A DNA stretch of 64,000 nucleotides from Niastella vici (GTDB lineage: Bacteria > Bacteroidota > Bacteroidia > Chitinophagales > Chitinophagaceae): assembly GCF_002077945.1 (NCBI RefSeq), contig NZ_LVYD01000045.1, forward strand, positions 1 to 64,000, given 5' to 3'. Below are positions 2,299 to 35,684 of this stretch, piece after piece (the stretch's first letter is position 1; each line of letters opens with the position of its first letter). A program made the position numbers and the translations under genes. The notes under the pieces are model-generated. The model was not told where the DNA came from. It searched no databases and was given only the letters and a program-made list of their open reading frames with translations.

Positions 2299-2721
2299 AT
2301 GATAACTACGCCTATGCCTGAAAAAGTACATCAAGGACGAGCTGTTAAGCGCATACGAGAAATATTACAGGTAAAACAGGAAACCCTGGCTAGCGAACTT
2401 GGTATCAGCCAGCAAAGCGTGTCCCTGTTAGAATCTAAAGAAACGATTGATCCGGAGACTTTAGAGCAAATTGCCAAAACGCTAAAGGTGCCAGTGGAAG
2501 CGATTAAGAGTTTTAATGAAGAAGCAGCCGTTAATATTATAGCGAACACTTTTCAAGACGAATCTGTTGCATATGCCTATAACTACAAGTGTACTTTCAA
2601 CCCATTAGATAAGTATATCGAAACTGTTGAAAAGAATGAAAAGCTTTATGAGGCGTTATTAAAATCAGAACGTGAAAAGATTGCTTTGTTGGAAAAGATG
2701 TTGGGAGAGAAAAAGAAGTAA
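2299..2721 (+). CDS. XRE-family helix-turn-helix regulator
   Basis: 140 residues. An N-terminal lambda-repressor-like HTH covers about residues 13-68 (VKRIREIL, QETLASELGISQQSVSLLE, IDPETLEQIAKTLKVPVEAI). The tail ends in a charged, probably coiled-coil helix (KSEREKIALLEKMLGEKKK) suited to dimerisation. This is a common small Bacteroidota regulator. It is divergent from the HEPN gene and upstream of the SPARTA operon, but a terminator at 2746-2764 separates it from the latter, so it is probably a separate unit. The start could be 2299 or the in-frame ATG at 2314; a -7 promoter box immediately upstream argues for the latter. Confidence 0.85.
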   Translation: MITTPMPEKVHQGRAVKRIREILQVKQETLASELGISQQSVSLLESKETIDPETLEQIAKTLKVPVEAIKSFNEEAAVNIIANTFQDESVAYAYNYKCTFNPLDKYIETVEKNEKLYEALLKSEREKIALLEKMLGEKKK

Positions 2722-2934: not shown

Positions 2935-4227
2935 ATGAATGAAAAGGAAACGATATTTATAAGCCATAAATCTCCAAGCGACAATTATTTTGCTGCATGG
3001 TTAACCTCAAAGTTAAAGTTGCTTGGATACGATGTTTGGCTAGAGGTTGATGAATTGAAAAGCGGAGATCCTTTCTGGCCAGAAATCGAAGCTGTTATAA
3101 GGAACCGGGCGGTAAAATTCCTTATACTCATTTCTAATAACTACTTGGACAATATAAATGATGCCAGTAGTGGAATATTTAAAGAGCTTTCAACCGCAGA
3201 CAGAATTAAAACTATAAAAAATTTTAAAACCCCCATTAAGATTGATGATGTGAATGAGGACAACTTTCCTCTTCAGCTAATGGGACTCAACTCAATTGAT
3301 TTTTTTAACAATTGGCAAAGTGGCCTGGATAAATTACTTGATAGTTTCGGAAAAGAAAAAATTCCTAAAAAAGATCACGCAGACAGTCCACTAAATTTTT
3401 GGCTAGAAGCATTTAAGATTAAAGATTGTCACACAAACGAACCTGAGAAAATATATACTAATTGGTTTCCTTTCACCTTACCAGATAAACTGTACATTCA
3501 TAAACCTATTATTAAAAGTAGCCTTGACAAAACAGATATAATCTACCCATTTATTGAATATAGTGATAGACACATAAGCTTTTTTCCCAGCAGTGCGTAT
3601 CCTGAATCAATCGTAGTTCCTACCAGCGCAGAATTGAGCATCCCTGATATATTAGACCAGCAGCTAGTTCCAATTGATGATTTTCTTTCTTTAAGCGAGC
3701 CTAGAAAAAAGATAATTGAACTAGTAAATAGCGCATTTGCTGAATACTTGTTTCAATCAGGCTTAAAAAAATATGAGCAGTCTAATAGATTAGTATTCTA
3801 CTTCCAAAATACAGAGGCACATAGGAAAAGGATTAGTTTGAAAACTGTGGGTAAAACTAATGTTGCAGTCACAGGTAAGACAAAAGAAAACCGTTGGAGT
3901 TTCGCGATTAGTTTTTTTTCTATCCTGCACCCATACCCTTGTCTGCGTGTGAATAGCCATATCGTATTTGAATCGCAAGAAAATATTGTACTTGACGCTG
4001 ACGAACAGCATCAGCTTAGAAGGAAATTTGGATTTGATTGGTATAATAGAGACTGGTTAGATACCTTATTGGGAATGATGCTAAAGATTTCGGATAGTGT
4101 TAATGATTGTAAAATTAGAATACCCATTGGTCCAAAATTGGAGTTAGTCATTGACGCGATTCCCGCATCTATTGATACTAACTTTGGATATTTTGAACCT
4201 GAGAAAGAAGAAAAGGAAAATGCTTAA
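2935..4227 (+). CDS. TIR-APAZ protein of a SPARTA system
   Basis: 430 residues. The N-terminal TIR domain spans about 1-130: strand TIFISHKS, YDVWLEVDELKSGD, FLILISNNYL, and a candidate catalytic glutamate E84 in IFKEL at the usual TIR NADase position. The remainder is an APAZ-like region that in this family replaces the N/PAZ part of Argonaute and holds the partner subunit. In characterised SPARTA systems the TIR hydrolyses NAD+ after RNA-guided recognition of invading DNA, killing or stalling the cell. The next gene, a short Argonaute, overlaps this one by 8 bp (4220-4227), as expected for a stoichiometric complex. Length and order match known SPARTA pairs, including ones from the same bacterial family. 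Confidence 0.9.
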   Translation: MNEKETIFISHKSPSDNYFAAWLTSKLKLLGYDVWLEVDELKSGDPFWPEIEAVIRNRAVKFLILISNNYLDNINDASSGIFKELSTADRIKTIKNFKTPIKIDDVNEDNFPLQLMGLNSIDFFNNWQSGLDKLLDSFGKEKIPKKDHADSPLNFWLEAFKIKDCHTNEPEKIYTNWFPFTLPDKLYIHKPIIKSSLDKTDIIYPFIEYSDRHISFFPSSAYPESIVVPTSAELSIPDILDQQLVPIDDFLSLSEPRKKIIELVNSAFAEYLFQSGLKKYEQSNRLVFYFQNTEAHRKRISLKTVGKTNVAVTGKTKENRWSFAISFFSILHPYPCLRVNSHIVFESQENIVLDADEQHQLRRKFGFDWYNRDWLDTLLGMMLKISDSVNDCKIRIPIGPKLELVIDAIPASIDTNFGYFEPEKEEKENA

Positions 4228-5770
4228 AATTATACATATAAATGAACCGAATCTTATTTTTGGATTTGACCAGAAAACGATTGATCCCCGCGATGGTCTT
4301 GTTTTATTCGGACCACATCAGCCGTTATACCCCTACTCCTTAAGAATTGGGGTCATCGGTTTACAAGAAGATGTTATTGAATATAAAAATTTTGTTGCAC
4401 AACTAAATCGGCCAATACTTTCAACACAGTCAAAGTATAAAGTAACAAAATCTCTTGAAAGGTCGCGCCCAAGTTTTCCTGGCTTTGAAGCGGTTTTTAA
4501 TGTCAAATGGCCCGTCAAGCCTGAAGTTGAATTAATAATTGGTTCCCTGGAAATTCAAAAGTGCCTAAAGAATCCGAACAGAATTTTACGTGCCAACGAT
4601 CTAGTTGACCTCTACCTAAATAAAATACGTCAAGTTGAAAAGAAAGAGGATGCAAAACTTAACTTATGGTTCATCCTTATTCCCACCCAAATCTATGAAA
4701 CTTGTAATGCTAGTTCTTGGGGGCGAAGTATTGGCAAAGGCACTCACGAATATGTAGAGAAGACTGAAAAGGGCCAAATTTCGTTAAGTTTTTCTGAATA
4801 TGCAGATTACGACAACAAACTGGCAAGGATACTCGACACCGCTTCTGATTTTCACAACTTACTAAAAGCCAGGTTAATTCAAGAACAGATTACAGTTCCT
4901 GTACAGTTAATAGTCGATAAAACGCTAAGATTTCGAAATAGGGATACCAATATACCGTTCCAGGAATATCTGAAGGCAAACTTTGCATGGACGCAATCAA
5001 CCACGGTCTATTACAAATTGGGCAGGTTGCCTTGGAAATTAGGAGATGTCAGGGAAGGTGTATGTTATATAGGCTTAGTCTATAAAAAGCTACCTAATGA
5101 AAGGGAAAGAAATGTTTGCAGTGCAGCACAAATGTTTTTAAAAGATGGTGACGGTTCTGTCTTTAGAGGAAATATTGGGCTTTGGGAAAGTGAAAAACCG
5201 CACGAATATCACCTTGACGAGATGTCTGCTCAAGAATTAATCGGTATGGCCCTAGATGATTATAAAGAAAAATGGAATATATATCCGAACGAACTCTTTA
5301 TTCATGCCAAAGCTAATTTCAACGATATCGAATGGCAAGGCTTTTTAAATGCAGTTCAGAACCGTTCGGCTCACACAAGTTTAGTCGGAATTCTCATTAA
5401 AGATTTAAACGAACTAAAGTTATATCGTCAGCCCTATAATCAATTGGGTAATTATGGTGTAATGCGCGGCACTGCCTTAATTGTTGATGAAAAAGAAGGT
5501 TACCTCTGTACCAAAGGATTTATCCCTCGCCTTAACACTAGCAATAGTTTAGAAATTCCGAGAAATCTGAGAGTAAAAATTGTTCGTGGGAATGCACACA
5601 TTGAAACTGTATTAAAAGATATATTGGCATTAACCAAGTTAAATTACAACGCCTGTGCTTATGGAGATGGAAGCCCAGTAACTCTTAAGTTTTCTAATAA
5701 AATTGGTAGTATTCTAACGTCAATACCCGATTGGAAAGTGGACACTCGACAATTCATGTTTTATATATAA
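4220..5770 (+). CDS. Short prokaryotic Argonaute (SPARTA subunit)
   Basis: 516 residues when started at ATG 4220, inside the tail of the TIR-APAZ gene; a longer frame reaches back to 4151 but would overlap by 77 bp, and the purine-rich AAGAAGAAAAGGAAA just before 4220 fits a ribosome site. The beginning, NLIFGFDQKTIDPRDGLVLFGP, is characteristic of short pAgos. A MID region and a PIWI-like region (LFIHAKANF, LYRQPYNQLGNYGVMRGTAL) follow, ending with a hydrophobic C-terminus FMFYI. Short pAgos lack a working DEDX nuclease site; I see no convincing tetrad here. The expected role is guide-RNA-dependent recognition of foreign DNA to activate the partner TIR NADase. The next TIR gene starts only 3 bp downstream. 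Confidence 0.9.
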   Translation: MLKIIHINEPNLIFGFDQKTIDPRDGLVLFGPHQPLYPYSLRIGVIGLQEDVIEYKNFVAQLNRPILSTQSKYKVTKSLERSRPSFPGFEAVFNVKWPVKPEVELIIGSLEIQKCLKNPNRILRANDLVDLYLNKIRQVEKKEDAKLNLWFILIPTQIYETCNASSWGRSIGKGTHEYVEKTEKGQISLSFSEYADYDNKLARILDTASDFHNLLKARLIQEQITVPVQLIVDKTLRFRNRDTNIPFQEYLKANFAWTQSTTVYYKLGRLPWKLGDVREGVCYIGLVYKKLPNERERNVCSAAQMFLKDGDGSVFRGNIGLWESEKPHEYHLDEMSAQELIGMALDDYKEKWNIYPNELFIHAKANFNDIEWQGFLNAVQNRSAHTSLVGILIKDLNELKLYRQPYNQLGNYGVMRGTALIVDEKEGYLCTKGFIPRLNTSNSLEIPRNLRVKIVRGNAHIETVLKDILALTKLNYNACAYGDGSPVTLKFSNKIGSILTSIPDWKVDTRQFMFYI

Positions 5771-5773
5771 ATA

Positions 5774-6313
5774 ATGATTATAACAGAAGCTCAATTCTTT
5801 AGCGACACTAAAGGAGATAATAAATTTTCTGTATTGTTTGAAAAAGTGTTAGCTGATGCATTTAAAAAAACACTTTACATTTTCATTTCCCATAAACACA
5901 ATGAAGTGAATCATGTTTATAGGCTCCAAGAAATATTAGGCCGATATGGTTTTACAGGCTATGTTGACTGGGAAGACGATAACATGCCTCCTACCACAAG
6001 TGGTGAAACAGCCGTCCAATTGAAAGACAGAATAGTAAAAGCCAGAAAATTTATATTAATAGCAACAGAAGCAGCTATTGAATCCAAATGGTGTAATTGG
6101 GAGGTTGGCTTTGCAGATGCACACAAGTATGAAGATCATTTGGCGTTGCTTCCAATAAAACCTGATCAATCACAATACAAAGGAGAAGAATATTTACAAA
6201 TTTATCCTTCCATTCAGATAAGAAGTGAAAGCTTGGAAAGGTCACAATTATCTTATTACGTTCAGTACCCCAACGGAAAGGAAATATCATTAAAAAACTG
6301 GTTAACAATTTAA
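5774..6313 (+). CDS. TIR-domain protein coupled to SPARTA operon
   Basis: 179 residues, starting 3 bp after the Argonaute stop. A TIR fold covers about residues 32-135: strand TLYIFISHKH, GYVDWEDDNMPP, RKFILIATEAA, and candidate catalytic E110 in WCNWEVGFAD. There is no membrane segment or second recognisable domain; the tail PNGKEISLKNWL is short. It is followed at 10-bp and 9-bp gaps by a membrane protein and a ThsB-like TIR, so these three look like one cassette. The translational closeness to SPARTA may only reflect island compaction. The role is probably NAD+-dependent signalling or depletion in anti-phage defence. Confidence 0.85.
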   Translation: MIITEAQFFSDTKGDNKFSVLFEKVLADAFKKTLYIFISHKHNEVNHVYRLQEILGRYGFTGYVDWEDDNMPPTTSGETAVQLKDRIVKARKFILIATEAAIESKWCNWEVGFADAHKYEDHLALLPIKPDQSQYKGEEYLQIYPSIQIRSESLERSQLSYYVQYPNGKEISLKNWLTI

Positions 6314-6323
6314 AATATAACAT

Positions 6324-6725
6324 ATGGAAAATAAGATCAAACATCTGGAATTTATTCAACTAACCATCACCAGGATGAACGTGAATTCCTTTATGGTAAA
6401 GGGCTGGCTCATAACACTTGTTGCAGCAATTTTTGTTTTGTCTGAAAAGGATGCTAACACAAAATTTCTATGGTACACACCCTTTGCCACCGCAGTGTTC
6501 TATGGTTTGGATACATATTTTTTGATGTTAGAAAGGCAATTCCGCAGTCTTTATAATCATGTTAGGACTTTGCAGGAAGCTGAAATAGACTACTCTATGG
6601 ATATTTCTTCTTACCAAAGCGGAAGAAACAGTTTTGTAAGGTGCCTGGTTTCTCTTACAGTACTCTTGTTTTACCCTGTGGTTCTCGTCGCATCCCTCAT
6701 TGCGGCTGCATATATTAATCATTAA
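6324..6725 (+). CDS. Small three-helix membrane protein, candidate effector
   Basis: 133 residues with three hydrophobic spans: about 25-42 (KGWLITLVAAIFVLS), 49-68 (WYTPFATAVFYGLDTYFL) and 107-130 (RCLVSLTVLLFYPVVLVASL). A conserved-looking charged loop LERQFRSLYNHVR follows the second helix. It resembles a family of small Bacteroidota membrane proteins found among defence genes; I know of no tested function. Placed between two TIR genes with 9-10 bp gaps, it could be the membrane-disrupting effector of a TIR-generated messenger, comparable in logic to transmembrane effectors of CBASS. That role is inference. Confidence 0.75.
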   Translation: MENKIKHLEFIQLTITRMNVNSFMVKGWLITLVAAIFVLSEKDANTKFLWYTPFATAVFYGLDTYFLMLERQFRSLYNHVRTLQEAEIDYSMDISSYQSGRNSFVRCLVSLTVLLFYPVVLVASLIAAAYINH

Positions 6726-6734
6726 TTTTTTGTT

Positions 6735-7232
6735 ATGACCAGAAAAGTTTTTTTTAGCTTTCATTACAAAAGGGACATTGTTAGGGTGTCAAGAATAAGA
6801 AATAGTGGCATCGTTACTTCTAACTATGAAAAATCATCTTTTCTCGACCATGCAGATTGGGAGTCCATTCAGAGAAAAGGTTCTTCTGCTATAAAAGATT
6901 GGATTGACAGCCAACTGATTGGCTCAACTGTAACCTGTGTTTTAATTGGTTCCGAAACCAATGATAGAGAATGGGTACATTATGAGATAGAACAAAGTGT
7001 TTTGAGAAAAAACGCAGTATTAGGAGTCTATGTTCATAATATGAAAGATTTCAATGGGAATGTTGATCGGCCCGGCTTCAATCCTTTGGCCAAACACAAA
7101 ATAAATGGCTATGATTTACAATTGATCGCTCCAGTTTATGATTGGGAATTACATGATGGGTACAGAAGTTTCGGAGGATGGATTGATCAAGCAGTCAGCA
7201 AGTTTAAACATATAGGGCATTTCAGGGGATAA
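6735..7232 (+). CDS. ThsB-like TIR protein (DUF1863/MTH538 TIR type)
   Basis: 165 residues, nearly all TIR-like. It has the hallmark start KVFFSFHYKRDIVRVSRIRNSG, then DHADWESIQRKG, a core strand TVTCVLIGSET and WVHYEIEQSV with candidate catalytic E84. This is the fold of ThsB, the Thoeris sensor that converts NAD+ to a cyclic ADP-ribose isomer when phage is detected. A canonical ThsA (SIR2-SLOG or membrane-macro) is not adjacent; the nearest possible partner is the small membrane protein 9 bp upstream. A paralogue lies at 8737-9357. Family placement is strong; membership of a Thoeris-type pathway is inference. Confidence 0.88.
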   Translation: MTRKVFFSFHYKRDIVRVSRIRNSGIVTSNYEKSSFLDHADWESIQRKGSSAIKDWIDSQLIGSTVTCVLIGSETNDREWVHYEIEQSVLRKNAVLGVYVHNMKDFNGNVDRPGFNPLAKHKINGYDLQLIAPVYDWELHDGYRSFGGWIDQAVSKFKHIGHFRG

Positions 7233-7353
7233 AATCCATTGTATCTACATTATACTTTTTCCAATATCCGATTATATCTTTAAATAATTCCAAAGCCATA
7301 CATTAGAACTTACAATATTTCCTTATTAACTAAATCCTAAATTCTTCCTTAAA

Positions 7354-8613
7354 GTGCAATATGACGCTTTTATCTGCCATGCCAGTGAGGACAAAAAAGA
7401 TTTTGTTCGCCCGCTGTCTGAATTGTTGCAACAACAAAACCTTGATATTTGGTATGACGAGTTTTCACTTACTGTCGGCGATAGTCTGATGAAAAAAATT
7501 GACGAAGGGCTATCCAAATCTAGGTTTGGAATTGTTGTACTGAGTCCAAATTTTTTTAATAAACCTTGGGCGAAACGAGAGTTGAATGGTCTTACAACAA
7601 GGGAAATGTTGGAGAAAAGGAATTTAATTCTACCTATTTGGCATGGGGTCACAGCTCATGACGTTGCTCTGTACTCTCCCCCGTTGGCGGATAAATTAGC
7701 GATATCTTCTGCAAATGGAATAAATGCTGTTATAAGGGAATTGACCAGAAAAATTAAACCAGATGAAAGTCCATTAATAGTTGCGCGAGATTACCTATTG
7801 CATCTTAAACTTGATCCCCCACCTATTTCAGATGAATGGTGGTTAGATATGGTCGAATATAAAGAGTTCCTTAAATTTCCGGATCTCAATGCACAAAAAA
7901 GATGGATATTTCCATTGCCCTATCCGAATGAAGATAGAGGTTGGGAAAGAGGTCATAATATTGCATCCACTGCTTTACAATTGGATTGGTCATTTGAAGG
8001 TGAAGAATTAAATATTGATCCAACAACTCACCCCGAAATCGTTCATAAATTCCTTCATCGATGGCCGGGACTATATGAATGTGTAAGATTAAATCCAACC
8101 GTGCTAGCCTTGTACGTCCCTCAGTTAACAATTCCTGGTTTCGATTCTGGGTTCGAAGACTTATTTGACGAAATTCTAAGCCCAAGTAAACAAACTTCAG
8201 ACAAAATATTTTCTTATGGCAAACACAAAACTATTGATAACAATGATCCCTTATGCGCAGACATAATTGCTCTTAGACATCCAACATTTGGTAACTATAC
8301 GGAAGAAGAATTGGGATATTGGTATTTTAATGCTCATGATACAAAATATTTTCGTTCTGAAGCGGATACTTTCGAAGGGCTAGTTTGGCTTTTGAGTGAT
8401 GATTCCACATGGTTGCCTCAAAAATATAGAGATACTTTTATTAAGGGAATCTGTTCTAGGGATCAATGGACGCACCCAGGGCATAGATATAACAATTCAT
8501 TTATGCAGGCATTATTAACCAAACCACGTAAGCAGTTTAAATTTACGAAGCAAGTAAAGAAAGGATTATTTGAAATAGTAGAACAAGCGAAAAACAATAT
8601 GGCCATTCGGTAA
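7354..8613 (+). CDS. TIR protein with large C-terminal domain of unknown function
   Basis: 419 residues from a GTG start at 7354, which places the TIR strand YDAFICHASED at the very N-terminus as is usual. The TIR covers about 1-140 with IWYDEFSLTVGDSL, IVVLSPNFF and candidate catalytic E76 in WAKRELNGL. The remaining ~280 residues are soluble, rich in tryptophan and proline, and match nothing I recognise; they may sense the invader or bind a ligand. After the TAA stop the frame stays open for another 32 codons (8614-8709) with a plausible coding look, so the C-terminus may once have been longer. It is probably co-transcribed with neighbours, though 121-123 bp gaps on both sides allow own promoters. 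Confidence 0.85.
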   Translation: MQYDAFICHASEDKKDFVRPLSELLQQQNLDIWYDEFSLTVGDSLMKKIDEGLSKSRFGIVVLSPNFFNKPWAKRELNGLTTREMLEKRNLILPIWHGVTAHDVALYSPPLADKLAISSANGINAVIRELTRKIKPDESPLIVARDYLLHLKLDPPPISDEWWLDMVEYKEFLKFPDLNAQKRWIFPLPYPNEDRGWERGHNIASTALQLDWSFEGEELNIDPTTHPEIVHKFLHRWPGLYECVRLNPTVLALYVPQLTIPGFDSGFEDLFDEILSPSKQTSDKIFSYGKHKTIDNNDPLCADIIALRHPTFGNYTEEELGYWYFNAHDTKYFRSEADTFEGLVWLLSDDSTWLPQKYRDTFIKGICSRDQWTHPGHRYNNSFMQALLTKPRKQFKFTKQVKKGLFEIVEQAKNNMAIR

Positions 8614-8712
8614 AAGTCAGATAGTATTATTTCAAAGCTACTGGAACTAGATTTAGTTAAATGTTTCTATGATTATAGGGACTGGTTGGAAGATCAAAGG
8701 AACCGTTATTAG
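8614..8712 (+). pseudogene. Possible in-frame C-terminal remnant after TIR stop codon
   Basis: Directly after the TAA of the preceding TIR gene, the same frame reads on for 32 codons to a TAG at 8710-8712. The translation (including LLELDLVKCFYDYRDWLEDQ) has an amphipathic, protein-like composition. It may be the old C-terminus cut off by a nonsense mutation, or a chance open stretch. No start codon or separate gene is supported. Confidence 0.3.
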
Positions 8713-8736
8713 GACGAATGGTGAAAAAAAATAGCT

Positions 8737-9357
8737 ATGGCAAAACGAGTATTTTTTAGCTTCAATTATGAAGACGTAAAGAACTTCAAGGTAAATGTAG
8801 TCAGAAACAGCTGGATAATAAGAGACGGCGAAGGCTCTTTTGTTGACAGTTCCATTTGGGAATCTGCAAAATCCAAAGGAGTAGCTCTTATTAAAAATTT
8901 AATAGATAGTGGGTTAAAGGGCACTTCGGTTACTGCTGTTTTAATTGGCGAAGATTCGGTTAACCGCAGATGGGTTAATTATGAAATTATCCGGAGCTTT
9001 GAGCGAGGGAATGGTTTATTGGGTATTCATATTAATAGAATAGCCGGACGAACGGGTCCTACTGTCAGAGGATTAAATCCACTAGATCGGCTTGGCTTCG
9101 AGATTTCAAAGGATGGCAAGAAAGTTCATTTTTATGAACTCAATAACAAAAATTGGGTCTCTTATGCGGATTTACCTATAATTAATAACAAACAATCCAA
9201 TACTCTCTTTTTTGAAGACAGCTTTTGGTCTGGCAATGAATTTGGTAAGTTTTATCGCTTTTCTGATAAATTCAGTACGAAATGTTGGGATTTAGAAAAT
9301 GGATATAAGAATTTATTTAACTGGGTGGAAATTGCAGTTAAACAAGCAGGAAAGTGA
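8737..9357 (+). CDS. Second ThsB-like TIR protein
   Basis: 206 residues. The first ~110 align by eye with the protein at 6735-7232: RVFFSFNYED, VVRNSWI, SSIWESAKSKG, TSVTAVLIGEDSV and WVNYEIIRSFERGNGLLGIHIN with candidate catalytic E83. The C-terminal ~95 residues differ and carry an additional aromatic-rich segment (VHFYELNNKNWVSYADLP, FEDSFWSGNEFGKFYRFSDKF). Thoeris systems often hold several ThsB genes with different sensing specificity for one effector, and two divergent copies here fit that habit. The start ATG at 8737 sits right before the conserved first strand. Confidence 0.88.
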   Translation: MAKRVFFSFNYEDVKNFKVNVVRNSWIIRDGEGSFVDSSIWESAKSKGVALIKNLIDSGLKGTSVTAVLIGEDSVNRRWVNYEIIRSFERGNGLLGIHINRIAGRTGPTVRGLNPLDRLGFEISKDGKKVHFYELNNKNWVSYADLPIINNKQSNTLFFEDSFWSGNEFGKFYRFSDKFSTKCWDLENGYKNLFNWVEIAVKQAGK

Positions 9358-9407
9358 TCATGTTCCTATCTAATAAATTGTATAATTAATTATGAACATA
9401 AAAGTTT

Positions 9408-10580
9408 ATGACTACCACATATCAATTAATAACAATCGGAATTTCTCATACTCTTAAAGACACAATTATTGAATCTTTCTTTCAAAGGGTTGAGGAATTA
9501 GGAATTCCAACCGAATTAATATCAATTATTAATGGAGAAAATTTTAACCAATACAAACCCAATGCTCCTTCCGTTTGCCTCTATTTTGGGGAGCCTCAGG
9601 TTAAACAATTTCCAGACCTTGTTATATTAGAGCAACTACAGGCAAATGCAGTTTTTACGATACCAATTGTACCTGATCTTAAAAATTTTTCAAATTCTAT
9701 ACCTGAATCACTACGTCCCATTAACGGTACCGCGTTGAATAATCTCACGCAAGTCGATGCGATTGTAAACAGTATTTTAGAAGGGCTTTCGCTTTTACGA
9801 GAATCGAGAAGACTTTTTATTAGTTATAGAAGAATCGAATCTAGGACGATGGCAATTCAGCTTTACGAACATCTGGATGCCTGTGGGTTTGATGTGTTCT
9901 TAGATACTCATTCCATTCGCCCAGGAGAACCGTTTCAAGAAGAACTTTGGCATCGGCTGGTGGATACTGACGTCGTAGTACTTTTAAACACTCCTGGCTT
10001 TATGGAGAGTCGGTGGACTGCAGAAGAGCTTGCTAAAGCATCTGCTATGAGTATCGGAGTCGTACAAGTAATCTATCCTGAGCACGAGCCAGAAAAAATG
10101 GCTGCACTTTGTTTTCCTTTTTATTTGGACGATAAACATTTTGCAGGGGGCAATTCAAGAAATCCTGATGGCTTTTTCACCGTAGGTGCACTTAAAGAGA
10201 TAGCAAAACAAGTAGAGGTAGTAAGGGCTAGAAGTTTAGCAGCACGTCAAGACAATATTATACGGGAATTTACTTCCACCGCGCAAAAATTAAACGTAGC
10301 TGTTCAATTGCACCCACAAAAGTTCATGACCCTGCGGAATTCAAATGGTAAGGAAGTAGCGGTGATTCCGACTGTAGGAATTCCTCATGGTTTTACTTAC
10401 AACCAAACAGCCGAGTTGATTAAACTGATTCGAGAGAGTGAAGCCGCAGAAGCATTAATACTTTATGACCATCGGAATATCAGAGAAAAGTGGTTAAATC
10501 ACTTGATTTGGTTAGACTTATATTTGCCTGTCAAATCGGTAAAAATCACCGAAATTGAAGAATGGATGACTAAATTATAA
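9408..10580 (+). CDS. TIR protein with N- and C-terminal extensions, partner of SLOG gene
   Basis: 390 residues in three parts. Residues 1-130 form an alpha/beta segment of unknown role (YQLITIGISHTLKDTI, PSVCLYFGEP). A TIR domain covers about 134-270: RRLFISYRR, FDVFLDTHSIRPGE, VVVLLNTPGF and candidate catalytic E206/E207 in RWTAEELAKA. The C-terminal ~110 residues (VAVIPTVGIPHGFTYNQTAELIKLI) may form another small alpha/beta unit. It is followed after 4 bp by a stand-alone SLOG protein. TIR plus SLOG pairs are predicted nucleotide-signalling conflict systems, the TIR making an NAD-derived signal and the SLOG binding it. The pairing is seen; the mechanism is inferred. Confidence 0.85.
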   Translation: MTTTYQLITIGISHTLKDTIIESFFQRVEELGIPTELISIINGENFNQYKPNAPSVCLYFGEPQVKQFPDLVILEQLQANAVFTIPIVPDLKNFSNSIPESLRPINGTALNNLTQVDAIVNSILEGLSLLRESRRLFISYRRIESRTMAIQLYEHLDACGFDVFLDTHSIRPGEPFQEELWHRLVDTDVVVLLNTPGFMESRWTAEELAKASAMSIGVVQVIYPEHEPEKMAALCFPFYLDDKHFAGGNSRNPDGFFTVGALKEIAKQVEVVRARSLAARQDNIIREFTSTAQKLNVAVQLHPQKFMTLRNSNGKEVAVIPTVGIPHGFTYNQTAELIKLIRESEAAEALILYDHRNIREKWLNHLIWLDLYLPVKSVKITEIEEWMTKL

Positions 10581-10584
10581 TATC

Positions 10585-11160
10585 ATGATATTTTTATCTG
10601 CCAGCATTCCTGATGCCAAACGCGATCCGAAATACTTTAATACAGCTGATATTGTAGCCATAAGGGATGCCGTTCGCGCTCTAGCCACGGTGGTAATACC
10701 TCGTACGCAACTGATTTGGGGTGGGCATCCAGCTATTACTCCCTTAATTCGCCATGTGATGCAAACTATGAAGTCCGATGTAAATGAACATGTTACTCTA
10801 TATCAGTCTGAATATTTCCGATTGCACTTCCCACAAGAAAATAAATATATAGAAAAAATCATATTCACTGATGCTAGGCCAACCCTTGAAGAAAGTCTTT
10901 TAATTATGCGTCAGGAAATGTTACAAAAGGAGCATGAATTCAAAGTTGGAATTTTTATTGGAGGAATGGGAGGTGTTGAAAAGGAATTTAGACTGTTTCG
11001 TGAATTGCACCCTACGGCTCATATTTTACCAGTGGCTAGCACCGGCGCTGCCGCTAGGATAATCTACGATAACTTTGAGCAAAAACCTAATAGGAGACTT
11101 TTAACTGATTATGCTTATATGGCATTATTCAAAGAATTGCTTAATGAATACTTACAATAA
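10585..11160 (+). CDS. Stand-alone SLOG-family nucleotide-binding protein
   Basis: 191 residues. The start MIFLSASIPDAKRDPKYF, the helix VAIRDAVRALA, the IWGGHPAITPLI loop and the glycine-rich VGIFIGGMGGVEKEFRLF are typical of a Rossmann-like SLOG domain of the kind associated with TIR proteins. In Thoeris type I the SLOG domain of ThsA binds the cyclic ADP-ribose signal; here the domain is alone, with no fused SIR2 or other effector. It could work as a ligand-binding regulator of the TIR encoded 4 bp upstream, or as an enzyme in signal turnover. No catalytic motif of lysine-decarboxylase-like LOG enzymes (PGGxGTxxE) is exact here: GGMGGVEKE is related but altered. Confidence 0.8.
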   Translation: MIFLSASIPDAKRDPKYFNTADIVAIRDAVRALATVVIPRTQLIWGGHPAITPLIRHVMQTMKSDVNEHVTLYQSEYFRLHFPQENKYIEKIIFTDARPTLEESLLIMRQEMLQKEHEFKVGIFIGGMGGVEKEFRLFRELHPTAHILPVASTGAAARIIYDNFEQKPNRRLLTDYAYMALFKELLNEYLQ

Positions 11161-11201
11161 TTAATAATCTTTTTGAATATTACATTTTAATTTAAGTAAG
11201 A

Positions 11202-11984
11202 ATGTATAGAGGTTTTAATCTTAGTATCGGAAGCACTGAGGACTTTTATGAAACAGGAAAGAAGATATATGATAAAATTAAAAATCCTATTCAAAAGACA
11301 TTAAAAGATTTTATTTCCGTTTCTGGCGTTATCGAAGGATCTAAATTACGAGAACATTGGTTCCCCCAACTAAATGCAGATGTATTCATTGCTCATTCGC
11401 ATAAGGATGAGCGGAATGCAATTGGGCTTGCTGGTTGGCTGCATCAGAAATTTGAGATTACAGCTTTTATCGATTCCTGTATTTGGGGTTACGCTGACGA
11501 CCTTTTAAAAATTATTGATACTGCTTATTGTTTAGATGATGATAGAATAAATTATAACTACCAAGAAAGAAACTTCTCTACGGCACACGTTCACATGATG
11601 TTGTCTACTGCGTTAACTATGATGATAGACAGAACTGAATGTATTTTTTTATTAAATACTCCTAATTCTATTTCATCAACAGAAACAATTAAAGACAAGA
11701 CAACATCTCCATGGCTTTATTCTGAAATTATAATGACGCAATTGGTCAGAAGACGAAGGCTTCTTTCACATCGTCCAGCTACACGAACTTTCGCAAAATC
11801 CCTAAAACTAAATGAGCGGCTTGAAATCGAACATGATGTAGACATAAGTGGGCTCACAAACCTAGATAGAGATGGTCTTTTAACTTGGCTTAGAAAGTGG
11901 AATCGAAAACCATTTCACAAAGAAGCGTTTCCATTAGATTACCTTTATGAATTGTTTGATGATTCAGGAAAGGAAGCTCTATAA
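11202..11984 (+). CDS. Divergent TIR-like protein
   Basis: 260 residues. An N-terminal helical lead of ~55 residues is followed by a TIR-like domain: ADVFIAHSHKDE, FEITAFIDSCIWG, a helix-rich insertion of about 45 residues, TECIFLLNTPN and candidate catalytic E175 in SPWLYSEIIM. The C-terminal ~80 residues include a basic stretch LVRRRRLLSHRP. The insertion between the second strand and the core strand is unusual for TIR. It starts 41 bp after the SLOG gene and appears to belong to the same run. It may be a NADase or a signal maker; the sequence cannot distinguish these. Confidence 0.75.
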   Translation: MYRGFNLSIGSTEDFYETGKKIYDKIKNPIQKTLKDFISVSGVIEGSKLREHWFPQLNADVFIAHSHKDERNAIGLAGWLHQKFEITAFIDSCIWGYADDLLKIIDTAYCLDDDRINYNYQERNFSTAHVHMMLSTALTMMIDRTECIFLLNTPNSISSTETIKDKTTSPWLYSEIIMTQLVRRRRLLSHRPATRTFAKSLKLNERLEIEHDVDISGLTNLDRDGLLTWLRKWNRKPFHKEAFPLDYLYELFDDSGKEAL

Positions 11985-11985
11985 A

Positions 11986-12330
11986 ATGGTAAAAAAGTTG
12001 TTGCGTTCATTCTGGTAAAGGATTCGTAGAAACCACGTCTGAAACAAATGTCCACCAATTAAATGCTCTGCAATACCTCTTTAGTGATGGTCAATTATTC
12101 TTCAATAAAAAAACTTTATCTCAGCATTACATTAAGGATTTAGTAAAAGAATCGAAGCACCTCAGAGTATCCGACCGGCCCAAAAAGCAACGCATTCACA
12201 AATAAGAACGAGGCTGGAAAAGAGACTTATATTGTCTTCAACTCTTTCCTTGAACCTCACTTTGGACTTGAATAGGCCTTTCATTCAGCTAACTAAGGGA
12301 GGTAGAACAGAAAAACTTTCCAATGGCCTA
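11986..12330 (+). pseudogene. Decayed coding remnant between TIR genes
   Basis: The 492 bp between the TIR-like gene and the Roco gene hold no intact ORF, but pieces read as protein: an open stretch 11993-12205 (about 70 codons, no ATG, containing HQLNALQYLFSDGQLFFN) and, in another frame, about 12198-12274 (AGKETYIVFNSFLEPHFGLE). A short ATG frame at 11986 ends after 10 codons. This pattern suggests a frameshifted gene remnant. I cannot name the parent family. A near-perfect palindrome CTTCTTTCA-A-TGAAAGAAG lies further on at 12347-12365. Confidence 0.35.
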
Positions 12331-12346
12331 CCCGAAGTTCGCCATC

Positions 12347-12365
12347 CTTCTTTCAATGAAAGAAG
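12347..12365. repeat. Palindrome CTTCTTTCA-A-TGAAAGAAG before Roco gene
   Basis: Nine-base arms around one central base, 111 bp before the Roco start codon. With one base between the arms it cannot make a normal hairpin loop of that size, so a protein-binding site is more likely than a terminator. Whether it controls the Roco gene is not known. Confidence 0.4.
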
Positions 12366-12476
12366 AAACAAAATCTAACGTCAGCACTATTAGTCGGGTT
12401 ATTGTCTAAGTGCTAAAATATATAATGTGGATGCAATACGATCACTATATTGTTTTCTAACCTTTAACATCAGTTA

Positions 12477-15400
12477 ATGAATCTGATTTATACTTTTCAA
12501 AACTCTGGAGAACAGATCAATAACGACGTCGTGCTGCCAGGCGCACCGTTTCGAGTTGAGCCTATTTCGTATAATTTCTTACTAAAGCCTCAATGTAAAT
12601 TTTGGCGTTTCGGTATTCGATTTTCAAGGACAGATACTGTTCAATTTTATATGCCTGAACACAGATACAAGAAGCCAGAGTTCGACGAAAACTTCATCGA
12701 CATTCATATAGGTGTCGGTCAATGGGAAGACGGAGTTTGGAGAGATGAAACCAAATTCCATTTAGCACAGTATAATCTAGATGGATTAGATCATTTATTG
12801 ACGGAGAAACCTTATGTTCCAATGTCAGCAGTTGGATGGAGTCTCAATTTTGAACCGTCCACAAATACTATCGTTACTTATTTTGAGTTTAATGACAATC
12901 AGAAACTGCCTATAGTCACTCATGAACTATCAATACCTAGAGAGTTTAAATTTTTCAAAGTCTTTGCTTGGGCGGATAAATCTTCCTTCCAAATAGACTG
13001 TGAAATATCAATCAACTCTGCCCAAACCGATTTGTCGTCAGTTGATTTCAGGGTCGGAAATATCATCTTTCGAAAAGGGAACATGTTTGATTATAGCACC
13101 CAGCGAATGGCAAATGTCTTCATTTTACCTGCTTCATCAAGTGGCACTGCAACACCACATACCTTAAATAGAGCTTCGGAATTAGGAATTCCAAATCCAA
13201 AGCCAAATCTTGCAGGATCCGTTGAGCTTTATCCAGTAACGAGTGCTCGCCAATGGATGAGTGCAGGTTATGGTTATGCAGTAAACCGTGACAGTTCAAG
13301 TTTGGAAATAGTAGCACAAACAGCAATGAATCTGCACGACAAAATTGTAAATAATAAAGAAGCGAAACTGAATTGCCGTGCTGTTAGTTTACCCCTTTTG
13401 GGAACTGGTACAGGTCGGCTTGATCCCATACTAGTAGCGTCAACGCTTGATCAAACTCTTAATGCAGGTATGTTGCTTAATTATGTAGTGAGCATACCTG
13501 ACGGAATAACTTTCTTAAATGTTAAAAGATTTTTCATTGGACGTTACGATGAATTAGGTGGAGATGAAAATAACGTTGTTCCAAATGTGATTATAGATTT
13601 CGCAAAAAGGTATTTACTTAATATTGATAATATTAAGTACGATTTCGATGAAGATCGTAGGGTTTCACATTTATCACTTGAGGATTCATCATTCACGTTT
13701 CATGATTTTTGGCCAGGTGAATTGAAGTTTGTAACACATTTGTCATTCAATAATTGCAAGTTGAATAATCTTGAATTTCTCAAAAAGGTCAACAGATTGA
13801 AACATCTAAAAATGACTTCATGCTCAATTGTAAATATCAGTGCACTCGAAGCTAAACGGAAATTATACTCATTAGAACTTAGCAATCTAGATATAGAATC
13901 TTTATTGTTTCTGATCTCCCATACGTCCCTTCGAGCGTTGACCCTACGGAGTATGCATCTAAAATCACTTAGTGAAATATCGATTCTGACCAACTTAGAG
14001 GAGCTAGACTTACGATCAAATGAAATTGACAACTTAAACGGTGTAGATGCTCTTAAAAAACTTAGGAAGCTATTTATTGCTACCAATAGAATTACTTCTA
14101 TTCAACCAGTCAAGCACCTAAAGCAATTAGAGATCTTGGACATTAGCAATAATCTTATACAAGATCTAACCCCAATAGCAGTGTTGAAGAATCTAAAATA
14201 TCTGCGAGTAAATAAAAACCCTGCTATTTCGAAAGAGAAAATCATTTTGGATGATAATGAGAATCAGTTGTTACCTATTCAAAATATGCTGCAAAAAAAG
14301 GCAGAAGAAGACTTGGTAGACATTCAGTTGCCTTGCAAAATTTTGCTTTTAGGAAATCACGGAACTGGCAAATCATCTTTATTAAATCTATTGCAAAAAA
14401 GGCAAAACGAAACACCGCATTCAACTCATATAATTAAAATTGAAAAATATCCAACAGGCGCCAAGGGTATTCCCAAAGCTATTTTTTTTGATTTTGGAGG
14501 GCAAGATTACTATCATGGCTTATACAAGGCCTTTCTTAGCGGCGGTTCAGCTTACTTATTGTTGTTTAACCTGAACAGCAATGAAAACAAAAAACAGTCT
14601 GATTCCAATAAAATTTTAACTCAAGATTTCAGCTTGCAGTATTGGTTAAACCAAAAAAAGTATTTCGAACAGCAAGTATTTCAAACTGGCAGTGATCCAA
14701 TATTTATTATTCAAACATATGCTGATAAACATCCACGACTATTAAAGCTAGAGTTGACGGAGGATATCCAAAACATCTACTATGTGAATTTAATTGAGGA
14801 AGCAAGACAGCTAAGTACTTATAAGCAAAAGCAAAATAGTAACAATCTTAATCATCTGATTCAGGAAATTAAAGATTACATAGATTTTGCGTCTGAAATT
14901 GTTAAACGGCCTCGATGGTTTGTGACTTTCGTAAACAAGTTATTAGACCTTTCAGAGACTTCTACTCATGAAGCACTTTCAATAGAAAGACTTTTAGATT
15001 TTTATGACCGACCGGGGGATTCTGAACAAGTAAAAATATTTATGCAAGACGACCTAGATCAATTACATAAACAAGGACTTGTGTTATATTATAAAGATCA
15101 TTTGCCCGATATTGTATGGCTTAATCCGGTGGCGGTTGTCAATTATGTTCATGACAAAATTCTAATTAAGAGCAAGTTGCTAGATAGGTATGGCCTCACT
15201 CTAGAGGAAGTTAAAAAGTTCGATCAAAATATTGTCCAACTTCTCCATTTACAAAAAGTTCTATTCTATCATGAATACGGACAAGAATCGTACTATATAG
15301 TGCCAAACTTTCTCCCCTTGTTTGAAGAAGAGATTTCAGGAGCTGGATTACTTATGTTTGGAATGAATCGCCCGTGTGTAGTTTTGAAATTTATTAATTT

Positions 15401-16511
15401 TTTACCTTTCGGACTTATCAATCAATTGATTTGTTTTTTTGGCGTCTTGCCAGAGCATAAGAGGTTTTGGCGAGATAAGTTACTTTTTAAACTAGGCAAA
15501 ACCAAAGTGTGCATTGACGTGGATATGCAGTTGCTGGAAATAAAGATATTTACGTTCTCAGACACAGTTCTTTCCAGCAAGGAATCAGACTTAGTGGAAC
15601 GTTACATTTTTCTCAGCATAATGGGACAATATTGGGACATGGACATCCTAAGTTTTAACGACTTCTCTGAATTTGAAAAGGATAAGATCGTCAAAGAGAA
15701 ATTAAATTTAGAACAACCTCTGCATCAAAAAATTGCAAATCTAGAAGCGTTAATTGATAACGAGGCATGTAGACCGTTGGACCTATATATATCAAAAGAT
15801 AATAAAAATTTCGTGTCTTACTCCCAATTATGTGGATCGGACGGAGCGTCATCTATCAACGCCTATGAGAAAAGTTCTGAAACGGAGAACCTAACTGAAA
15901 AGATCAATATTGTGGAAGCGCATCCATTTCAAGTATTTACCAAAGCTAAATTGAAAAAAGCCTTCAAGGCGGTTATTTCTTATTCAAAGCAAGACTTAGA
16001 CCACGTACTCAAGTTTAGACAATACCTGGAACCGTTACGTGAACAAGGGTTACTTGATCGACATTGGTTTTGCACGCTACTGCTTGCTGGGGAAGAATGG
16101 AACGAAAAAATCAAAAAAGAATTTGATGAGGCTGACATCATTTTCTTTATGGTTAGCGAAAACTTAATGAGTACTCAGTACGTCAAGGAAAACGAAATAA
16201 AAAATGCTATTGATAAATATGATAAAGGCGGGGAAATATTTATTATCCCAATTTTGTTAGTACCCTATAATTTTAAGGGGAAGGGTAAATATGATTTAAC
16301 AAGATTTTCGTCCCTTCCATACTCGCTTAAACCAATAACTGAATTTCGTAATCAACATATTGCATGGCATGTAGTTTCAGAATTGATACGAATAACACTT
16401 GAGCGAAATTTAAAGCCAGAAACAACCAATGATCAATTTTATCCTCAGCTAGATAGGTATTTAGCAGCTATTATTAATGGAGACAAAATTGCAGACTCCG
16501 ACAAACTATGA
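12477..16511 (+). CDS. Macro-LRR-Roc-COR-TIR protein (bacterial Roco immune-type receptor)
   Basis: 1344 residues. Parts in order: 1-190, a beta-rich N-terminal region of unknown fold; ~190-365, a macro-like domain (VGNIIFRKGNMFD, NVFILPASS, VSLPLLGTGTGRLDP); ~385-605, leucine-rich repeats of the LEELDLRSNEIDNL type; ~618-790, a Roc GTPase with Walker A GNHGTGKS (626-633) and switch motif DFGGQD (D672, G675); ~800-1130, a COR-like region (RPRWFVTFVNKLLDLSE, DIVWLNP); ~1160-1310, a C-terminal TIR (FKAVISYSKQD, ADIIFFMVSENLM, KENEIKNAI). This resembles a STAND-like receptor: LRR and macro would sense, Roc-COR switch, TIR act on NAD+. A 492-bp gap before it suggests its own promoter. The combination is unusual; domain calls for Roc, LRR and TIR are firm, the macro call moderate. 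Confidence 0.88.
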   Translation: MNLIYTFQNSGEQINNDVVLPGAPFRVEPISYNFLLKPQCKFWRFGIRFSRTDTVQFYMPEHRYKKPEFDENFIDIHIGVGQWEDGVWRDETKFHLAQYNLDGLDHLLTEKPYVPMSAVGWSLNFEPSTNTIVTYFEFNDNQKLPIVTHELSIPREFKFFKVFAWADKSSFQIDCEISINSAQTDLSSVDFRVGNIIFRKGNMFDYSTQRMANVFILPASSSGTATPHTLNRASELGIPNPKPNLAGSVELYPVTSARQWMSAGYGYAVNRDSSSLEIVAQTAMNLHDKIVNNKEAKLNCRAVSLPLLGTGTGRLDPILVASTLDQTLNAGMLLNYVVSIPDGITFLNVKRFFIGRYDELGGDENNVVPNVIIDFAKRYLLNIDNIKYDFDEDRRVSHLSLEDSSFTFHDFWPGELKFVTHLSFNNCKLNNLEFLKKVNRLKHLKMTSCSIVNISALEAKRKLYSLELSNLDIESLLFLISHTSLRALTLRSMHLKSLSEISILTNLEELDLRSNEIDNLNGVDALKKLRKLFIATNRITSIQPVKHLKQLEILDISNNLIQDLTPIAVLKNLKYLRVNKNPAISKEKIILDDNENQLLPIQNMLQKKAEEDLVDIQLPCKILLLGNHGTGKSSLLNLLQKRQNETPHSTHIIKIEKYPTGAKGIPKAIFFDFGGQDYYHGLYKAFLSGGSAYLLLFNLNSNENKKQSDSNKILTQDFSLQYWLNQKKYFEQQVFQTGSDPIFIIQTYADKHPRLLKLELTEDIQNIYYVNLIEEARQLSTYKQKQNSNNLNHLIQEIKDYIDFASEIVKRPRWFVTFVNKLLDLSETSTHEALSIERLLDFYDRPGDSEQVKIFMQDDLDQLHKQGLVLYYKDHLPDIVWLNPVAVVNYVHDKILIKSKLLDRYGLTLEEVKKFDQNIVQLLHLQKVLFYHEYGQESYYIVPNFLPLFEEEISGAGLLMFGMNRPCVVLKFINFLPFGLINQLICFFGVLPEHKRFWRDKLLFKLGKTKVCIDVDMQLLEIKIFTFSDTVLSSKESDLVERYIFLSIMGQYWDMDILSFNDFSEFEKDKIVKEKLNLEQPLHQKIANLEALIDNEACRPLDLYISKDNKNFVSYSQLCGSDGASSINAYEKSSETENLTEKINIVEAHPFQVFTKAKLKKAFKAVISYSKQDLDHVLKFRQYLEPLREQGLLDRHWFCTLLLAGEEWNEKIKKEFDEADIIFFMVSENLMSTQYVKENEIKNAIDKYDKGGEIFIIPILLVPYNFKGKGKYDLTRFSSLPYSLKPITEFRNQHIAWHVVSELIRITLERNLKPETTNDQFYPQLDRYLAAIINGDKIADSDKL

Positions 16512-35045: not shown

Positions 35046-35684
35046 TCATGGTACTATTTTGGCGAGGCCTTTTTTATCGTCTTTGAGTGTTACATGACGA
35101 AATATAGACTTATTATTTTCAATCAATGTATCTAGTATTTCATCTGTAAGGTTGGGGTCAATTCTTCTGCGAATTCTTTCAAAACTTGCCGTTTGATAAC
35201 CTCGTTGGTTCAGGTAATTGAGTATGGCTTTTACCTGTGGATCTTCTGTATTCGATGGCATATTTGGAGTTGCGTTTGTTGATACAATAGAACTTGGATC
35301 TATTTCTTCATAAATTTCTTTAATTTGTTCAGTGAGCAAATTCCAGGGAAGTGAATTGGGCACAGTGAAGTCTAAATATTGAATGGATTCTAAACGAGGA
35401 TGCATCTGACATTGACTGATTTTTATTGGAATAATTGTTTTGCCTTTCCCAATTGCATAAGCCCATTCATAAGTTACATAAGGCGATTCAGTCGAATATG
35501 AACTTAGGGCGATTAACACAGCTCCGCTGGTAGAAATGCCATCTTCAATGCCTTGTCTCCAATCGGCGCCGGCTACCAGGCTGCCCTGGTCTCTCCATAA
35601 ATCAATACCTGCCTCTTTAAGTTTGATTTCCATTAGTTCTGCAAAAAAATAATCCTTCGTTGAATAACTTAAAAATACGGTCAT
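35046..35684 (-). CDS. TIR protein with C-terminal winged-helix-like domain
   Basis: 212 residues. The TIR domain occupies about 1-135: TVFLSYSTKDYFFAELMEIKL, IDLWRDQGSLVAGADW, AVLIALSSYST and candidate catalytic E73 in YVTYEWAYAIGKG. After a proline/serine linker (~140-150) the last ~65 residues (VKAILNYLNQRGYQTASFERIRRRI, DEILDTLIENNKSIF) look like a winged helix. It is well outside the main TIR island, with unrelated neighbours. A winged helix on a TIR could bind DNA or a partner protein; the role is unknown. Confidence 0.85.
   Translation of the reverse strand: MTVFLSYSTKDYFFAELMEIKLKEAGIDLWRDQGSLVAGADWRQGIEDGISTSGAVLIALSSYSTESPYVTYEWAYAIGKGKTIIPIKISQCQMHPRLESIQYLDFTVPNSLPWNLLTEQIKEIYEEIDPSSIVSTNATPNMPSNTEDPQVKAILNYLNQRGYQTASFERIRRRIDPNLTDEILDTLIENNKSIFRHVTLKDDKKGLAKIVP

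Follow-up and report, generated by a model that had tools for sequence, protein, structure and literature searches.

An eight-TIR defence cluster in Niastella vici with a predicted type III Thoeris core and an adjacent SPARTA pair

Do eight TIR-domain genes that lie side by side in one bacterial genome belong to a single immune system or to several? This question is raised by a stretch of 64,000 nucleotides (nts) from Niastella vici (contig NZ_LVYD01000045.1, positions 1 to 64,000; hereafter the window), whose source is a Bacteroidota genome of 10.06 Mb in 134 contigs. An initial annotation of the window had described a TIR supercluster at 2935-16511 and suggested a shared NAD-derived signalling network. 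Here, the eleven plus-strand genes of this block are labelled g1 to g11, and loci in other genomes carry L-numbers. Our analysis indicates that the cluster is real and large, yet mostly of an already known kind. We regard it, with a probability of roughly 0.6, as a composite defence cluster that would consist of a type III Thoeris operon, a SPARTA system, a g4/g10 pair that is split in this genome, and the genes g6 and g11.

Identification of the core gene pair

The heart of the block is formed by two neighbouring genes:

9408..10580, + strand: g8, predicted ThcB4 (NCBIfam NF058526, 442.1 bits versus a cut-off of 220; AlphaFold2 (AF2) pLDDT 87.4)
10585..11160, + strand: g9, predicted ThcA, a stand-alone SLOG protein (LD_cluster3; NCBIfam NF058525, 247.1 bits versus a cut-off of 110)

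Both equivalog models, taken from NCBIfam release 20, are exceeded about twofold, and judged from sequence the pair is almost certainly the ThcB4-ThcA pair of type III Thoeris. Since it is thus already named in NCBIfam, the centre of the finding belongs to a known system, of which the clustering of multiple TIR genes is a property. An earlier idea, prompted by the lack of a better name in Pfam and PADLOC, was that g8-g9 represents an unnamed 'split ThsA' system; it was dropped in view of the NCBIfam assignment. The g9 protein also matches Pfam PF18180 (9.5e-63), has an AF2 pLDDT of 94.4, and carries the residues that are invariant in its family alignment (S104, R109, G126-G127-M128, G130, and E134). 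In the single-chain AF2 model of g8, an N-terminal alpha/beta domain is followed by a central TIR domain (E207), a long helix, and a C-terminal alpha/beta domain; in Foldseek searches this model mostly returned generic alpha/beta folds, with TIR matches from E = 1.3e-3 down. A TIR or SLOG relationship of the two terminal domains was also considered and received no support from profile comparison.

To collect relatives of g8, an alignment that combined it with three related proteins was used to scan 84,980 species genomes. All counts out of 80 refer to the best 80 of the 146 relatives obtained, which form 70 clusters at 95% identity and 53 at 80%; by record title they belong mostly to Bacteroidota, and also to Ignavibacteria, Alpha- and Gammaproteobacteria. 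A g9 gene accompanies g8 in 78 of them, and both exceptions lie at contig ends. With mechanically assigned start codons, the two genes overlap in 73 of these 78 loci, mostly by 19 nts, while the window has a 4-nt gap instead. The distance matrices of the two proteins correlate with r = 0.88 (72 loci). After exclusion of near-duplicates, truncated sequences, and out-of-range lengths, 66 of the 80 g8 and 65 of the 78 g9 relatives were submitted to NCBIfam, and all rows (67 and 66, respectively, with the window included) matched NF058526 or NF058525 at E <= 1e-20. A description of the type III Thoeris system was not found in the literature searched, outside of which lay most subscription papers and bioRxiv; in the accessible part of a phage paper (PMC12390725), TadIII is named as 'protecting from Thoeris type III'.

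TIR genes accompanying the core

Three further genes of the block encode small TIR proteins resembling ThsB:

5774..6313, + strand: g3, ThsB-like TIR protein (E110; PADLOC ThsB 2.6e-50)
6735..7232, + strand: g5, ThsB-like TIR protein (E84; Pfam ThsB_TIR 1.3e-23; PADLOC PDC-M50B 4.3e-62)
8737..9357, + strand: g7, ThsB-like TIR protein (E83; assigned by Pfam, PADLOC, and its relation to g5)

Such genes are found repeatedly around the core. A further TIR gene is located within 5 kb of g8 in 77 of the 80 loci (one such gene in 19 loci, two in 32, three in 20, four in two, five in three, and six in one). The remaining three comprise a locus with a broken SLOG gene (L072) and two that lie at contig ends (L093 and L103). 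Another TIR gene is part of the co-directional run of g8 itself in 72 loci. The g3 type and the g5/g7 type each occur in 48 loci, a ThsB class of ~230 aa in 46, and the g10 type in five. The smallest sets consist of one ThsB-like TIR gene together with g8 and g9 (within 5 kb, the ~230-aa class alone in 10 loci and the g5/g7 type alone in seven). Because between one and six additional TIR genes accompany 77 of the 80 relatives, the clustering of TIR genes around g8-g9 is a recurrent property. When counted by hand, the window has six other TIR genes within 5 kb of g8, which equals the maximum among the 80 (L043). Its g8 run includes five, or six with g1 added from beyond the prokaryotic Argonaute (pAgo) gene; the longest runs among the 80 (L037 and L043) contain five.

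A separate draw based on the SLOG protein gave five loci, other than our own, out of 395 genomes of the phylum, and four of them have a further TIR gene. In the fifth (L126), the profiles applied detected no further TIR gene; L049, apparently from the same genome, has a member of the ~230-aa class. Because L126 and L124 apparently come from the genomes of L049 and L046, respectively, the independence of this draw from the g8 scan is only partial. Of five loci on viral contigs, four include g9 along with further TIR genes; in the remaining one, a weak match covers just the TIR part.

The distances within the partner classes correlate with those of g8 at 0.33 for the ~230-aa class, 0.38 for g5, 0.63 for g3, and 0.81 for g7 (16 loci), a pattern that fits a fixed g8-g9 pair with partly exchangeable partners. 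The g3, g5, g7, and ~230-aa classes would be the obvious candidates for ThcB1-3, names that we infer from the numbering of ThcB4. The members of the set that come together again in other genomes are g3, g5/g7, g8, and g9; the eight TIR genes do not recur as one system. Much of the set of the window is present in L034 (Salegentibacter), in the order g10-g4-g3-g8-g9-g5 and with a g6-class TIR gene of another architecture.

In comparison with type III Thoeris as defined by the two equivalog models, which g8 and g9 both pass, the window agrees with its relatives in that further TIR genes adjoin the core. It differs by the SPARTA pair directly upstream and by g4 and g10, which are split around the core, and its ThsB-like g3, g5, and g7 are without an NCBIfam name.

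Composition of the TIR block

The ORF (open reading frame) map of the window contains eight co-directional TIR-domain genes with open ORFs in 13.6 kb of the + strand, and the gene list and coordinates of the initial annotation were correct according to ORFs, Pfam, and PADLOC. Between consecutive genes from g1 to g10 the gaps do not exceed about 125 nts, and g11 begins 492 nts past g10. Three non-TIR genes lie among the eight: g2 encodes a short pAgo, g4 a small protein judged membrane-like by eye, and g9 the SLOG protein. Seven of the eight TIR genes reach the cut-off of Pfam TIR_2 or ThsB_TIR, the exception being g10. TIR_2 has 12 matches in the genome, five of them inside the block; ThsB_TIR adds g5 and g7, PADLOC adds g10, and the block holds eight of at least 15 TIR genes of the genome. 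In a class-wide survey, at least 83 of 346 genomes had any TIR_2 match. A ninth TIR gene of the window, outside the cluster (35046-35684, - strand, 212 aa, TIR_2 5.3e-24), has the best TIR_2 score of the genome.

The proteins of g7 and g5 are 43% identical across 120 aa, and the remaining TIR genes match different PADLOC models; the cluster is therefore not the product of one tandem duplication. The block is AT-rich, as had been noted (GC content of 34.5-37.7%), but elsewhere the GC content runs from 34.8 to 50.3%, and the block is therefore not distinctive against, for example, 21-28 kb. A promoter scan gave fewer sites than in shuffled sequence and terminators occurred at chance level, so that the limits of the operon are drawn from the gaps between genes alone. 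No repeats marking an insertion boundary stood out in a repeat search.

The glutamate that had been reported at the usual catalytic place of each TIR domain is conserved in the family alignments. Among the rows that have a residue at this position, the fraction with glutamate is 1.00 for E207 of g8 (81 rows), E110 of g3 (64), E84 of g5 (42), E83 of g7 (28), and E175 of g10 (8), and 0.98 in the ~230-aa ThsB class of relatives (46 rows); E1240 of g11 is conserved in eight of eight rows. In g6, the glutamate is in place when the protein is aligned to AbTir, and the same holds for g1 against the SPARTA TIR-APAZ chains in PDB. The catalytic role of TIR glutamates is known from characterized families, and their presence here is seen by alignment.

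SPARTA and the remaining genes

The block starts with two genes that precede the Thoeris operon:

2935..4227, + strand: g1, TIR-APAZ protein of SPARTA (PADLOC Aga_TIR-PNTD1-PNTD2 1.7e-116; PDB 8fex TIR-APAZ 3.5e-52)
4220..5770, + strand: g2, short pAgo (MID-PIWI) of SPARTA (PADLOC pAgo_I 1.1e-180; PDB 8ifk 3e-121)

By every sequence test made, g1-g2 is a complete SPARTA pair. A TIR-APAZ protein is present with a short pAgo adjacent, and the two agree with SPARTA in both genes, their order, the overlap (8 nts, given the ATG at 4220, picked by hand, as the start of g2), and the TIR glutamate. The sole difference is the position directly before the Thoeris operon, which is nothing defining. SPARTA is known as an NADase in its own right that is triggered by invading DNA. 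Among the 80 loci, SPARTA was found near g8 only in L094, where g4 lies directly upstream of the SPARTA pair, followed by ThcB4-ThcA (4114-9566). As a control, the surroundings of ten pAgo loci elsewhere, drawn from 345 genomes, were read for up to ~10 kb per side. A TIR match beyond the APAZ-type or directly adjacent one was observed in one of them (L120); four (L117, L118, L119, and L121) had no TIR match at all and may therefore represent other short-pAgo types.

The remaining genes of the block, and a neighbour directly upstream, are as follows:

6324..6725, + strand: g4, small protein, membrane-like by eye (PADLOC PDC-M50A 6.1e-52)
11202..11984, + strand: g10, divergent ThsB-like TIR protein with an insertion (E175; PADLOC PDLC00430 1.6e-82)
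7354..8613, + strand: g6, AbTir-like TIR domain (residues 2-131) with a ~290-aa C-terminal part (GTG start; PDB 8g83 AbTIR 6e-42)
12477..16511, + strand: g11, LRR-Roc-TIR protein (E1240; Pfam LRR_4 2.6e-16, Roc 8.2e-9, TIR_2 2.8e-8)
2299..2721, + strand: XRE-type helix-turn-helix protein (Pfam HTH_3 8.2e-10)

Although g10 has no Pfam match, a profile built from it can be aligned with that of the g3 family (hhalign 96.8%). The g4 and g10 genes are adjacent in L034, L050, L053, L065, and L080. Among 296 genomes, g10 was found in three others (L129-L131), each time with g4 beside it and with no g8-g9 in the short flanks. Conversely, g10 has no g4 beside it in L025, L134, and the second copy of L050, and g4 occurs without g10 in L094. 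The window also agrees with the PADLOC candidate system PDC-M50, as M50A (g4) is adjacent to M50B (g5), whereas elsewhere g4 stands mostly beside g10-type TIR genes.

For the C-terminal part of g6, no relative was found in the loci searched. The initial annotation had spoken of parts that fit no described layout, but g8 and g9 do fit one, that of type III Thoeris. The N-terminal ~400 aa of g11 are without an assigned family, and a macro domain suspected there by eye was not supported. In a survey with g11 (at most two candidates scored per genome), all matches apart from g11 itself were to the LRR or LRR-Roc part only. LRR-Roc-TIR genes are located within 10 kb of g8 in L043, L052, and L084, and pieces with matches to g11 profiles are found at the contig edges of L062 and L078. 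Both g6 and g11 are looser neighbours of the Thoeris core. The 492-nt gap ahead of g11 (11985-12476) has no ORF of at least 100 aa and is possibly a gene remnant. The XRE-type protein directly upstream of the block is a possible candidate regulator; a HEPN-domain protein is encoded just upstream as well (1188-2099, - strand; Pfam).

Genomic context of the relatives

Type I restriction-like subunits (by eye) are represented by at least two families within 6 kb in 23 of the 80 loci (among L033-L112), and in 18 loci the core is located between hsdS- and hsdR-like genes. Relatives of g8 are carried by 29 plasmids, of which 18 are predicted to be conjugative; at E <= 1e-8, a search of 50,697 phage records found none. 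In L070, a module at 12449-15499 combines MazG/MazG_C, HMUDK_hel (the helical domain of 5-hydroxymethyldeoxyuridine DNA kinase), a ThsB-like TIR, and Nmad2 (Pfam), which suggests a TIR system linked to modified nucleotides. Families of this module recur in six to eight of the 80 loci, among them L062, L065, L067, L087, L094, and L109.

Proposed mechanism and alternative explanations

How might the parts of the core work together? We tentatively propose, at slightly less than even odds, a division of labour in which the ThsB-like TIRs would be makers of a signal, ThcA its reader, and ThcB4 an NADase executioner. The small ThsB-like TIR proteins would sense different phage parts and turn NAD+ into a nucleotide signal, which ThcA would bind in a pocket akin to the one in ThsA. 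ThcB4, the long-helix TIR protein with which ThcA is paired, would then oligomerise, destroy NAD+, and abort the infection. SPARTA would work alongside, triggered by invading DNA.

The comparison with ThsA is based on PDB 7uxt ('USG protein', 497 aa), which we take to be a SIR2-SLOG ThsA. The invariant R109 and E134 of g9 align to its R397 and E426. According to the accessible part of a structural report, R371, K388, and E403 of ThsA coordinate 3' cyclic ADP-ribose (3'cADPR) (PMC10022894). Judged by spacing, we would equate R371 with R397 of 7uxt and K388 with its K414, and E403 corresponds to E426 only nearly. The window shares with type I Thoeris the ThsB-like TIRs and a SLOG protein with residues aligning to the ThsA pocket. 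It differs in that no SIR2-STALD ThsA was found in the genome (no match to PDLC00407 at E <= 0.01, a single model that was positive in two of 14 control genomes), and in that its SLOG protein is separate and paired with a TIR protein. With regard to the TM-macro ThsA of type II Thoeris, the Pfam macro domain had no match at E <= 0.1 in the proteins of the block, to which this search was confined.

Several observations weigh against the proposed scheme. The 7uxt match, although the best in PDB for the g9 profile, is weak (E = 0.021), the equivalent of ThsA K388 has no counterpart in g9, Pfam STALD reaches 19.9 bits on g9, below its cut-off of 24, and the g9 model had no Foldseek match in PDB with E <= 0.001. 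PADLOC files g8 as ThsB, and ThcB4 could therefore be a sensor rather than an executioner. A SIR2-type ThsA relative is present in the same cluster (within 6 kb) in four of the 80 loci (L039, L044, L062, and L078), so that some of the ThsB-like genes there may serve ThsA. None of the g3, g5, g7, and ~230-aa classes passes an NCBIfam cut-off, and the label ThcB1-3 is thus our inference. Moreover, when the distance-matrix correlations were compared with 300 shuffles, each partner class tested, and g7 most, co-diverged with g8 beyond the shuffles; partners are therefore not freely swapped. Finally, the g4/g10 pair is split in the window by five genes (g5-g9), an unusual order.

In the four loci with a ThsA relative, type I and type III Thoeris stand side by side. 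The genes of these ThsA relatives are located at 6671-8110 (L039), 6653-8111 (L044, in two pieces), 11869-13323 (L062), and 7042-8520 (L078); those of L039 and L078 coincide with STALD matches, and STALD was found in four of 48 genomes searched.

The strongest competing explanation, which we consider unlikely but worth keeping in mind, reverses the roles: ThcB4 would be a sensor or scaffold TIR forming pairs with the small ThsB-like proteins, and ThcA alone would be a LOG-type effector that destroys nucleotides. It is favoured by the name ThcA, which parallels ThsA, by the placement of g8 with ThsB in PADLOC, and by S. aureus Thoeris, where ThsB1 recruits ThsB2; the two are described in the accessible part of the source as a capsid-triggered pair (PMC12578639). 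An effector role of ThcA would also agree with the invariant residues kept in g9 and with the cleavage of base-ribose bonds by LOG-clade SLOGs, as stated in the portion available (PMC9503650). However, g9 is a bare SLOG to which Pfam assigns no added effector domain, and the SLOG of ThsA is a sensor, not a killer, in the report cited above (PMC10022894, accessible part).

A single, shared NAD-signalling network joining the eight TIR proteins, in which g9 and perhaps also g4 would act as receivers for all, is improbable. The short intergenic gaps from g1 to g10 are in line with such a network, as are the repetition of much of the set in L034, the presence of SPARTA with g8-g9 in L094, and the LRR-Roc-TIR genes or g11-profile pieces in the five loci named above. 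Because SPARTA lies near g8 in only one of the 80 loci, however, a network of all eight is unsupported; in addition, nine of the ten control pAgo loci have no TIR beyond the APAZ-type or adjacent one, the g4-g10 pairs of L129-L131 stand without g8-g9 in their short flanks, and SPARTA is its own NADase. What persists of the initial idea of several signal makers and few receivers is its match with the anatomy of the g8-g9 core and its exchangeable ThsB-like TIRs. A modular hub is a similarly long shot: a fixed ThcB4-ThcA executor and the membrane-like protein g4 would respond to NAD-derived signals supplied by exchangeable makers, among them the small ThsB-like TIRs, g10, g6, the LRR-Roc-TIR receptor, and even the SPARTA TIR. 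If this were true, protein, nucleic-acid, and surveillance sensors would feed common effectors. Least probable of all, and in our view very hard to sustain, is a passive defence island in which unrelated TIR systems have accumulated and g8-g9 is functionally unlinked to the other TIRs. The restriction-like families in 23 of the 80 loci, the recurring integrases, and the predicted conjugative plasmids would suit an island of this kind, but a TIR neighbour in addition to g8 is present within 5 kb at 77 of the 80 g8 loci, versus one of the ten pAgo loci beyond its own partner (within ~10 kb), and a further TIR is found in the same co-directional run in 72.

Implications

Under the composite reading that we prefer, the core is one already named in NCBIfam, and the window is a rich example of it next to SPARTA. 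Its TIR set is one of the largest, and DNA-guided SPARTA and Thoeris TIR immunity are brought together in one apparent operon. The fixed ThcA-ThcB4 pair is surrounded by TIR genes both in Bacteroidota and in Proteobacteria, and one to six exchangeable partners in 77 of the 80 loci therefore offer a natural test of whether one receiver may serve many makers of NAD-derived signals.

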